A stretch of DNA of 10,974 nucleotides, from NCBI GenBank assembly GCA_009784305.1, contig WRBZ01000019.1:1-10974 (forward strand), read 5' to 3'. The position numbers were made by a program, and so were the translations under genes. Source of the DNA: Synergistaceae bacterium (GTDB lineage Bacteria; Synergistota; Synergistia; Synergistales; Aminobacteriaceae). The notes under the pieces were generated by a model. It saw only the letters and a list, made by a program, of their open reading frames with translations, was not told where the DNA came from and did not search any database. Shown piece after piece: positions 3,483 to 7,218 of this stretch; the first letter of the stretch is position 1, and every line of letters starts with the position of its first letter.

Positions 3483-4274
3483 ATGAATAAGGGAAAAGTG
3501 GCAAGAATAGCTTGTATATGCTTGATTATGACCCATTTTGTTTTCTCTTCCATTTCCAATGGCGGTGTTACTACAGATTTAGTATCGAATGAGCCGGCAG
3601 AAAAAATAAGAAGCGTTTTTCATTCAAACCCTGGCTTTGACATGAATAAAGCTTTCCAGGGCGGAGAAACTTTATTGATGTTTGCTGCAGCTAATAATCC
3701 CCATAGTGCTGTCATACATTTGCTTGTATCTCTTGGAGCCGGTATAAACGCAAAAGATGAAGCAGGATTAACTCCGCTTATTTATGCCGTAACGACCAAT
3801 AAGAATCTTGGAACGACATTCGCGTTGCTTCAACTTGGCGCTGACCCCGAACTGGCTGATTTGGAAGGTGTATCGGCATTGATGTACGCGGCGCGTAATG
3901 CTGACCCATCAATAATGGAAGCTTTACTTTCAAAAACTTTGGATGTGAATAAGCCCTCAATAAAAGGCTGGACTCCCTTAATGTTCGCAGCAGCAAGCAA
4001 CAGCAGCACACGAGTAGCTGAACTGCTCCTTGAGGCCGGGGCATATATTAATGCTGTAGATTCGCAAGGTATGACCCCACTAATGCTTGCCTCAAAATGC
4101 ACAAAGAATCCGGAAATGGTAGAACTTTTATTAAGATACAGCGCGGATACGACGATTAAAGCAAACGGAGAAACTGCTATGGATTTCGCAAGGAGAAATC
4201 CGAAACTGAAAAGCTCTTCCGCCCTGAGAAATTTGGAGACTACGACAAGGCTAAGGCTCAGCGAGAAGAGTTGA
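3483..4274 (+). CDS. Exported ankyrin-repeat protein
   Basis: This 263-residue protein has an N-terminal signal sequence (positively charged start, hydrophobic core about 8-22, possible cleavage after SSIS near 26), so it probably acts in the periplasm or outside the cell. Five ankyrin repeats follow, beginning near residues 61, 95, 129, 162 and 196, with a sixth partial one at 229. Typical elements are GLTPLIYAV, GWTPLMFAAA, GMTPLMLAS, LLLEAGAYINA and LLVSLGAGINA. Repeats run 33-34 residues, several with an NP or DP before the second helix, where canonical repeats are 33. Ankyrin repeats bind proteins; no enzymatic domain is visible and the partner is unknown. GGAGGTG (3470-3476) six bases before the ATG is an excellent ribosome site. 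It is first in the rightward gene series, 73 bases before the solute-binding protein gene. I could not identify its promoter with confidence. Confidence 0.85.
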   Translation: MNKGKVARIACICLIMTHFVFSSISNGGVTTDLVSNEPAEKIRSVFHSNPGFDMNKAFQGGETLLMFAAANNPHSAVIHLLVSLGAGINAKDEAGLTPLIYAVTTNKNLGTTFALLQLGADPELADLEGVSALMYAARNADPSIMEALLSKTLDVNKPSIKGWTPLMFAAASNSSTRVAELLLEAGAYINAVDSQGMTPLMLASKCTKNPEMVELLLRYSADTTIKANGETAMDFARRNPKLKSSSALRNLETTTRLRLSEKS

Positions 4275-4347
4275 GACAATGCACAATCAGAGGATAAAAG
4301 TATTTTTTCGTTTTTAATTGTGAATTGCATTAAGAAAGGTGACTAAT

Positions 4348-5976
4348 ATGAAAAAACTTATTTGTATAGCTATAATGACGATGTTATCAATGCCGACATA
4401 CGCCATGCCTGTTGTTGATGAATTATATATGGTTATACTGCGCGACCCTGACGCCCAGATAATTGCCATTGAAAATAACAAGATTGATGTTTTAGGCGAT
4501 TTGATCCGCCCAATTGATATAGAGAGGCTATCGAGGTCACAAAATGCAGAGCTTTCCATAGCGCCTGCTTTTCACAGTTTCTACCTGAGCTTCAACACAC
4601 GCCGCTTTCCGTTCGATTCGAAGATTTTACGACAGGCCGTATGGCAGGTGATTCCAAAGAATAAGATAGTACGCGACTTGTTTTCAGGGTATGCGGATCC
4701 AATTGATTCCTATCTTCCTCCTGTATCTACCTGGCTGGATTTAAATGTCACATACTTTAGCTATAATCCTGACAGGGCGAGAGCTTTATTGGAAAGGTAC
4801 GGTTGGAGATGGGATTCTAAGGGTATACTTGTTTCACCGAATGGTGAAACTTTAAAACCAATGAAGCTTATGTCACCAACGGCGTCTGTCGCGCCGACTT
4901 CCGCCGAAATTGGAAACCAAGCTGCGGAAGCCATGCGAACACTCGGTATCCCGATTGAAAGCGAACCCATGGATTTTTCCGCAATGCTTTCAAGAATGGA
5001 CAGGCACGATTTTGACGCGGTAGTCCATGCTTGGAGCCTTTCACGGGATCCGGATTCGCTTTTTTCGTTCTATCATTCCTCAATGAACGTACAGGGAGGC
5101 TACAATGTTTCAGGGATATCAGACCCTAAATTGGATGAGGTTTTGCTTGAACTGCGCGACGCTCCCGATGAAATCACCGCACGCGGAGCGGTAAGCGAAG
5201 CACAAATAATGCTGTCGGAGCTTGTTCCATCTGTGCCTATTTACAGCCGTTATTCCATAGCTGCGGTAAATAAAGGATGGAACGGAGTTTACACTTCTGA
5301 AAAATCGACTGCTAATAATTTTTGGACACTTACGGGAATGACACCTTCCGATGGCAAAATGCGCCCCGTATATTGGGCTTTGCCGGAAGAACCGCGCTCC
5401 CTCAACCCGATAATCGCAAGCTCCGCTTATGATTGGATGGTAATGGGGAACATTTACGATAACTTGATATCAGTACATCCGGATACATTTGAAGATATTC
5501 CGTGGATTGCTTCAGAATGGAAAGTAAAAAATGAAGATGAAAGGACCATCCTTGAGTTTATAATAAGAGATGACATTAAATGGCATGACGGAAGGCCTTT
5601 GACTGTAGTTGACGTTATTGCAACCATTGAATTTCTGAAAAAGGCTGAAGCTCCAAGATATTATGACAGCGTCAAGGATGTAGAGAGCGTTATTTCACCG
5701 GCGCCAAATACTGTTGTGGTAAAATTTTCAAAAACGAGTTACTGGAATCTGCATAACATCGGAGGTTTGCCTATATTACCCAAGCATATACTGGATGGTG
5801 TAGAAGATTGGAGAGTATGGCAACCATCGAGAGAAAAGCATCTTGATAACCCTGATCTTACCCAACTAATTGGAACGGGGCCATTTGTCTTTTCGGAATA
5901 CAGACCCGGCGACTACGTATATTTCAAACGCAACGAGAATTTTTGGAAGCCTGACAAAAGAGGGATTAGGGAATAG
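4348..5976 (+). CDS. Circularly permuted family 5 solute-binding protein
   Basis: This 542-residue extracytoplasmic binding protein is of the oligopeptide/dipeptide type (SBP_bac_5). A signal peptide (about 1-19, ending TYA) is followed by sequence normally in the second half of the family: VDELYMVILRDPDA with NNKIDV (about 24-48), YLSFNTRRFPF with ILRQAVW (79-99), YNPDRARALLERYGW (139-153) and RDPDSLFSFYHSS (233-245). From about 335 comes what is normally the first half: YWALPEEPRSLNPI (342-355), PWIASEW (385-391), IKWHDGRPLT (410-419), LPILPKHI (474-481), IGTGPF (508-513) and RNENFW (528-533), where it ends. In OppA/DppA the second block comes first. The parts look complete, so a working fold is plausible. 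I chose ATG 4348 because AAAGG lies eight bases upstream and the signal peptide starts MKKL. No transporter membrane or ATPase gene is adjacent; the ligand is unknown. Confidence 0.88.
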   Translation: MKKLICIAIMTMLSMPTYAMPVVDELYMVILRDPDAQIIAIENNKIDVLGDLIRPIDIERLSRSQNAELSIAPAFHSFYLSFNTRRFPFDSKILRQAVWQVIPKNKIVRDLFSGYADPIDSYLPPVSTWLDLNVTYFSYNPDRARALLERYGWRWDSKGILVSPNGETLKPMKLMSPTASVAPTSAEIGNQAAEAMRTLGIPIESEPMDFSAMLSRMDRHDFDAVVHAWSLSRDPDSLFSFYHSSMNVQGGYNVSGISDPKLDEVLLELRDAPDEITARGAVSEAQIMLSELVPSVPIYSRYSIAAVNKGWNGVYTSEKSTANNFWTLTGMTPSDGKMRPVYWALPEEPRSLNPIIASSAYDWMVMGNIYDNLISVHPDTFEDIPWIASEWKVKNEDERTILEFIIRDDIKWHDGRPLTVVDVIATIEFLKKAEAPRYYDSVKDVESVISPAPNTVVVKFSKTSYWNLHNIGGLPILPKHILDGVEDWRVWQPSREKHLDNPDLTQLIGTGPFVFSEYRPGDYVYFKRNENFWKPDKRGIRE

Positions 5977-6033: not shown

Positions 6034-7218
6034 ATGAAGCGTTACACAGGAACAACCGTGCGAGGGATAAGAATGCCGATAGTCCGGAAAGGCGACGACT
6101 TGGTCCGCATAGTATCGGATAACCTCATTGAGGCTGCGAAAGTAACCCCGTTTGATTTTCATGACCGCGATATAGTTGGGGTAACAGAGTCTTTTCTTGC
6201 AAGGAGCCAGGCAAACTTCGTCTCTTTAGACAATATAGCGGAGGATATTTCCACACTCGCGCCACGGGGGGATATTGCTATAGCGTTCCCTATACTAAGC
6301 CGCAACAGATTTTTACTTTTGCTTAAAGGAATCGTAAAAGGGATTTCAGGGAAGGTAAGAACATATTTATCATACCCGGGAGATGAAGTGGGCAATCTAA
6401 TAATCGACCCCATAAACTATCTTGAGAATAAACATAAATTATCGTCGGAGTGTTTTAACGAGGAGGAATGGGAAAAAGTATTCGGGCGTTATATTCACAT
6501 ATTTACCGGAATTGACTATGTAAAACTATATCAGGAAGTTGACCCTGCAAGGATAGAAATTTGGTTTGTAAATAACCCTGCCGACATTTTGCAGTTTGAT
6601 AAGAATATCATTTTAGCGAGCATCCATGCGCGTTTTGTTCAGAAAGAAATGCTGCTCAAATCGGGCGCGTCATGGGTTTTGACATTGGACGAAGTTTGTC
6701 GCTCACCGCGGGAAGATGCGGGATATAATGAAGAATTCGGCCTTCTCGGTTCAAACCTCTCCGATAATGATGCGGTAAAACTTTTTCCCCGCGATTCGAA
6801 AATATTTGTAAACAAGCTTCATGATGAACTGTTCAGGTTAACCGGAAAAAACATTGAAGTCCTCGTGTATGGAGACGGAGCTTTCAAAGACCCTGCCTGC
6901 GGCATTTGGGAACTTGCAGACCCAGTCGTATCTCCGGGATATACGGAAGGGCTTAACGGGACACCGTCAGAAGTAAAACTTAAGCTTATAGCGGATGGGA
7001 CAAAAGGCGACGCGGGAAGCGCAAGCGAGATAGTCAAAAAAACCATTGCAGATAAACATAAGGAAAAAAATATTGACAATAAACTGGCTTTAGGAACAAC
7101 TCCCCGCCGTTATCATGACTTGATAGGCTCGCTATGCGACCTGACTTCAGGTTCAGGAGACAAGGGAACGCCCGTCGTTCATATTTCAGGATACTTCGAC
7201 ACTTATATAGACGATTAA
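6034..7218 (+). CDS. CofE-like protein (coenzyme F420-0:L-glutamate ligase family)
   Basis: This is a 394-residue cytoplasmic protein of the F420_ligase family (PF01996). True CofE adds glutamate to F420-0 using GTP. The N-terminal VRKGDDLVRIV and DIVGVTESFLARSQ match the CofE start, and LTGKNIEVLVYGDGAFKDP matches the metal/nucleotide-binding TGK..VGVIITDTNG region. Other conserved-looking blocks are SRNRFLLLLKGI, LSYPGDEVGN, YNEEFGLLGSN, GIWELADPVVSPGYT and a C-terminal GTTPRR followed by IGSLCDLTSGSGDKGTPVV. At about 400 residues it belongs to the longer form found in many anaerobic bacteria, not the roughly 250-residue archaeal enzyme. ATG 6034 has AAAGGAAG eight bases upstream and is preferred over TTG 6016. 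It ends 11 bases before uvrA. No other F420 biosynthesis gene is present here, so the actual substrate is unknown. Confidence 0.82.
   Translation: MKRYTGTTVRGIRMPIVRKGDDLVRIVSDNLIEAAKVTPFDFHDRDIVGVTESFLARSQANFVSLDNIAEDISTLAPRGDIAIAFPILSRNRFLLLLKGIVKGISGKVRTYLSYPGDEVGNLIIDPINYLENKHKLSSECFNEEEWEKVFGRYIHIFTGIDYVKLYQEVDPARIEIWFVNNPADILQFDKNIILASIHARFVQKEMLLKSGASWVLTLDEVCRSPREDAGYNEEFGLLGSNLSDNDAVKLFPRDSKIFVNKLHDELFRLTGKNIEVLVYGDGAFKDPACGIWELADPVVSPGYTEGLNGTPSEVKLKLIADGTKGDAGSASEIVKKTIADKHKEKNIDNKLALGTTPRRYHDLIGSLCDLTSGSGDKGTPVVHISGYFDTYIDD

Follow-up and report, generated by a model that had tools for sequence, protein, structure and literature searches.

Assessments of natural circular permutation usually rest on a few structures. 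Among the binding proteins of ATP-binding cassette (ABC) importers, the available part of one report (PMC4990184) describes MglB-2 (Tp0684) of Treponema pallidum as a naturally circularly permuted protein of "Type Ic / Cluster Bc", for which binding of D-glucose and a change in shape are reported and for whose moved part the authors found only 13% identity. Here we describe a protein of another group, cluster C (Pfam PF00496, SBP_bac_5), encoded at positions 4348 to 5976 of a 10,974-nucleotide contig of a Synergistaceae bacterium (WRBZ01000019.1, assembly GCA_009784305.1); this whole stretch is referred to below as the window. The order of its parts, their conservation, a confident structural model, the operon found in relatives and the co-occurrence with a long form of OppC make it very probable that this is an exported binding protein of the DppA/OppA/AppA fold, circularly permuted by descent, and likely a two-lobed peptide clamp that in relatives serves an Opp importer with a long OppC.

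Order of the parts and predicted fold

The open reading frame (ORF) and its parts are the following.

4348..5976, forward strand: permuted SBP_bac_5 protein of 542 aa, ATG at 4348 and stop codon ending at 5976 (Pfam, homologue and genome searches)
4333..4339, forward strand: purine stretch resembling a ribosome-binding site, upstream of the ATG at 4348 (by eye)
4348..4404, forward strand: signal-peptide-like N-terminus, aa 1-19, with no cysteine where cleavage is likely (by eye; modelled with low confidence)
4405..5337, forward strand: C module (C-terminal in ordinary members), aa 20-330, PF00496 positions 146-361, aligning to DppA 207-507
5338..5367, forward strand: short junction, about aa 331-340, leading from the natural C-terminus into the natural N-terminus (homologue alignment)
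5368..5958, forward strand: N module (N-terminal in ordinary members), aa 341-537, PF00496 positions 3-145, predicted local distance difference test (pLDDT) mostly >90

PF00496 was the sole Pfam match of the whole protein (203.2 bits against a curated cut-off of 32.4) and fell in two stretches, with aa 21-243 matching profile positions 146-361 and the 3' part of the ORF matching positions 3-145. Scanned apart, aa 1-330 matched positions 146-361 (E = 5.5e-31) and aa 331-542 positions 3-145 (E = 6.2e-28), i.e., the second and the first part of the profile and not the same part twice. These scores exclude a chance match. A first-pass annotation of this DNA had read the gene as an OppA/DppA-type protein with its second part ahead of its first and with a chain end that joins the chain start, and this is what we found: the profile is complete in the ORF but cut once, at 145/146, with the pieces rejoined in reverse order. 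The motifs quoted at that time are all present and in the order stated, and the junction exists as described, its position being amended here to about aa 331-340. The standard linear order (N part, then C part) is not that of this protein and, with the profile running 146-361 and then 3-145, we therefore class it as a permuted derivative of PF00496/cluster C and not as an ordinary member. It stayed below the curated cut-offs of the NCBIfam equivalogs Opp4A, NikA, DppA and OppA, the best being Opp4A with 120.6 bits vs. 650.

Alignments to the PDB entries of AppA (1xoc) and NikA (2noo) likewise consist of two stretches each, in swapped order. Structural alignment with Escherichia coli DppA (1dpp_A) puts the new chain ends at about residue 206/207 of the mature protein, which, going by the domain limits of DppA, would fall inside lobe I; the earlier suggestion that the new ends would lie near the hinge is thus not supported. 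The AlphaFold2 model (87 sequences) is complete, with no missing core, and confident (pLDDT 93.8, predicted template modelling score 0.90). With VIA, an order-bound aligner, residues ca. 18-335 of the model matched, e.g., DppA 207-507, the natural C-terminal end, and the best Foldseek rows were AppA, NikA and NikZ, with TM-scores of about 0.5 over ca. 305 columns and AppA of Bacillus subtilis (1xoc) at the top. That order-bound aligners should match the first part only is expected of a permuted chain. Among the matches listed by VIA and Foldseek, the structures shown are family 5-type proteins.

Conservation of the permuted order

The first-pass annotation had suggested looking for homologues with the same order. 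In a search limited to 0.55-1.75 times the query length, 750 proteins passed the threshold, and the best 120 of these were classified with separate hidden Markov models for the N and the C module, built from the homologue alignment. All of them (120/120) have the C module ahead of the N module (C-N order). Within this set the DN..LNP junction stretch measures 31-38 aa in the 108 measurable proteins, and a lipobox-like pattern appears in one of 113 measurable ones, the export signal being a hydrophobic N-terminus recognized by eye only. Seven full-length near relatives (P0002-P0008) are 78-86% identical to the window protein; P0001 (99% identical) belongs to the window's own cluster and was left out of the independent proof.

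One full-length collinear copy was counted by hand in 54 of 99 genomes, the window's own included, and broken pieces were found in three more (G007, G010 and G083). In a pattern scan of GTDB contigs, the permuted alignment matched 63 loci, some of them fragments at contig ends, of which 62 come from records titled Synergistota and one is archaeal; they include Acetomicrobium hydrogeniformans ATCC BAA-1850 (L106) and a record titled complete genome (L109). As an internal control, PF00496 was run over 12 genomes. By hand count, 79 matches of nearly full length had the ordinary order; there were also 8 permuted pairs, at most one per genome and all cut at the same place.

The operon of relatives and its long OppC

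In relatives, the permuted gene is the first gene of an Opp/Dpp operon. It is followed by OppB in 56 of the 57 loci with room for it (the window is counted and is the sole miss), by OppC in 48 of the 53 with enough sequence, by OppD in 45/53 and by OppF in 41/47, bearing in mind that OppD and OppF, being homologous, can cross-match. For these counts L046 and L088, which are one locus, were counted once, L124 and L125 were dropped (no usable match to the binding protein), four loci had no downstream room and the archaeal locus L126 was left out.

The OppC of this operon is ca. 395 aa long, with a longer N-terminal region that has no match in the listed paralogs. Its GTDxxGRD-type motif stands at residue 154-198 (median 168, 31 sequences <430 aa) vs. 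residue 49-55, counted from the first Met, in the two measurable ordinary paralogs, and therefore about 110 residues have been added ahead of the motif. With the long OppC as query against 39 genomes, 26 genomes gave matches that start no later than residue 16; among the other matches listed, none begins before about residue 153. The long form is present in 26 of the 29 genomes that carry the permuted protein, whole or in part (missing in the window's own genome, G007 and G008) and in none of the 10 that do not (Fisher p 4.5e-7, kinship not corrected). The gene at L078:6966-8153 and its orthologs are examples of OppC with the lengthened N-terminal region, in these 39 genomes only where the permuted protein is present.

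We propose that the order of the parts would have changed in one ancestor, with new ends at about DppA 206/207, perhaps by duplication and fusion followed by loss of the outer parts. The protein would most likely be exported to the periplasm, where its two lobes would close on a ligand, most probably an oligopeptide, since AppA is the best Foldseek match and the operon of relatives is of the Opp type. In relatives, the ligand would be handed to the adjacent Opp-type importer, whose lengthened OppC N-terminal region, probably extracytoplasmic, may dock the permuted protein. Going by the topology of OppC, the added part would be outside the membrane.

With regard to tandem forms, no N-C-N-C protein was present among 309 classified proteins, a set in which the length limits (0.55-1.75 times the query) would hide many. 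A candidate intermediate in the window's own genome (L002 on G000:C75) was rejected, as this 835-aa SBP_bac_5 protein has the ordinary order plus an insert, with ca. 96 residues between its profile matches 10-62 and 61-361.

Archaeal relatives and a second permutation

The archaeal locus L126 encodes a 684-aa protein of C-N order, divergent from OppB, OppC, OppD and OppF genes, and the breakpoint is near-identical in archaeal and Synergistota C-N proteins. In its family (P0121-P0179) both modules are found in C-N order in 55 of 59 members and one module only in the other four; matches at 1e-15 occurred in 22 of 300 genomes of the phylum of L126. The OppC of this locus is longer still, with the motif at residue 312. 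At L126 (7914-9968 and 12031-13029) the permuted protein ends in dockerin-like repeats that score below the Pfam cut-off, and a dockerin match in a neighbour narrowly exceeds that cut-off; the protein between these two genes looks cohesin-like by eye but had no Pfam match.

Another set of 130 proteins (P0180-P0309) contained 88 with a different permutation, C2-N-C1, together with 38 of ordinary order and four partial ones. The model of P0183 (pLDDT 93.0, predicted template modelling score 0.85) aligns residues 206-544 to DppA 1-345, and therefore the cut of C2-N-C1 is near DppA 345. Its long C-terminal helix resembles a membrane anchor. The source names of this type include Korarchaeota, Bathyarchaeota and Thorarchaeota, most rows being unnamed. 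In a draw of 300 genomes from the phylum of L126, 27 had a match to P0183 at 1e-30, mostly to the N-C1 part only, like ordinary proteins.

A FastTree phylogeny was built from 146 proteins (18 from Synergistota, 29 archaeal C-N <800 aa, every third of the 88 C2-N-C1 and 69 taken as ordinary), in which four truncated proteins were mislabelled (P0205, P0208, P0213 and P0309). These four, and also P0261, P0275 and P0290, are absent from a subset tree of 61 proteins (10 Synergistota, 12 archaeal C-N, 13 C2-N-C1 and 26 ordinary). In the latter, the Synergistota C-N and the archaeal C-N proteins are each supported at 100/100 and joined at 97/81, the ordinary proteins nearest to the joint clade being P0181 and P0186, on a long branch. 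The C2-N-C1 proteins (P0183 and most of P0191-P0281) are interspersed with ordinary relatives; the label requires four changes in this tree, which includes 13 of the 88, and at least three are forced by well-supported branches. Gains or reversals of C2-N-C1 have therefore recurred.

Alternative explanations

Several observations weigh against a permuted binding protein that works with a long OppC. Neither the permuted protein nor a piece of it was found in 42 of the 99 genomes. OppC does not follow in 5 of 53 loci with room, and in 3 of 26 genomes (G011, G015 and G072) the long OppC is on another contig than the binding protein. The joint C-N clade has a support of 81 in the Shimodaira-Hasegawa-like approximate likelihood ratio test and of 0.825 in FastTree. 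The presumed place of the N module in lobe I draws on the profile, the conservation and the confidence of the model. Finally, a genome of the same genus (G001) lacks the permuted protein, and in the window's own genome, which is 78% complete, the Dpp-type permease pairs number only two and share 29-37% identity with those of the operon.

These last two facts bear on a possibility that concerns the window's copy and not the family, namely that in this lineage the gene is an orphan being lost or one with a new role (sensing, or work with an unrelated permease). We consider this rather unlikely. It agrees with what stands downstream of the ORF, at the place of OppB in relatives:

6049..7218, forward strand: F420_ligase-domain protein of 389 aa, outside the operon (Pfam; operon check)

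This gene is followed by uvrA, and no remnants of OppB, OppC, OppD or OppF were found downstream of the ORF, the sole weak OppF match being located inside uvrA; nor were cognate permease genes, or a close permease, found in the 78% complete genome. However, there are the seven near relatives P0002-P0008, all full-length, the tree branch to the window protein is short, the frame is intact with a signal-like start, the GC content at third codon positions is like that of the neighbours, and the genome is only 78% complete. Since no cognate permease genes were found, the window's copy would have to work with another permease, unless its partner lies in the unassembled part; it may also be decaying.

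As for the other genes around the ORF, F420_ligase covers the full length of the 389-aa protein, while models of F420-0:L-glutamate ligase match its start only, below cut-off. Directly upstream (3483-4274) is an ankyrin-repeat protein with a hydrophobic N-terminus, its repeats ordinary by Pfam and the NCBIfam matches shown far below their cut-offs.

Two separate origins of the C-N order, one in Synergistota and one in archaea, are improbable. The second, different permutation does show that such events recur in this fold, but the shared breakpoint, the joint clade and the fact that L126, the sole archaeal locus inspected, also has Opp genes and a long OppC all speak for common descent. The simplest reading is one origin of the C-N order, followed by transfer between archaea and Synergistota.

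A misjoining of ordinary binding-protein gene fragments in metagenome assembly could be imagined, the window being a whole contig of a genome in 272 contigs, but it has practically no chance and is rejected: the order and breakpoint are identical in many independent genomes, including L109 and L106, the full-length collinear copies in 53 other genomes exclude the join near 5340 that had been feared, and the pattern-scan loci, the homologue order and the 12-genome control agree.

Comparison with known systems

A wider proposal, tentative and one that we lean slightly against, is that the permuted protein and the long OppC would form a distinct importer class of single origin, spread between archaea and Synergistota, in which the long OppC docks the relocated surface, cluster C having been permuted at least twice and C2-N-C1 gained or lost several times. 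A single large transporter family here contains a permuted ortholog maintained in many genera of one phylum, its sister group in archaea, another permutation elsewhere and, in the same genomes, relatives of ordinary order, so that the effect of a moved chain end on folding, ligand closure and permease docking can be tested directly. It is also a warning that annotation with the SBP_bac_5 profile conceals topology.

In the literature searched, by title and abstract opening and with most subscription journals outside its scope, there was no report of a permuted SBP_bac_5 protein; in the available part of PMC2588589 the family is merely named in a table. With the AppA/DppA/NikA-type proteins of cluster C the window protein shares the match of both parts to PF00496, AppA as top Foldseek hit and, in relatives, the Opp-type operon, but the order of its parts is permuted and the OppC of relatives is longer at the N-terminus. 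The archaeal C2-N-C1 proteins (P0183 type) are also permuted SBP_bac_5 proteins with a confident model, but they are cut at about DppA 345, have a long C-terminal helix like a membrane anchor and fall elsewhere in the tree. The nearest precedent is MglB-2, and natural permutation of binding proteins is thus already known; as far as the available part of its description goes, however, MglB-2 has the cluster B fold and a moved part at 13% identity, whereas both parts of the window protein match one profile strongly. What appear to be new, within the literature searched, are the cluster C variant, its wide conservation, the matched OppC and the second, archaeal permutation.
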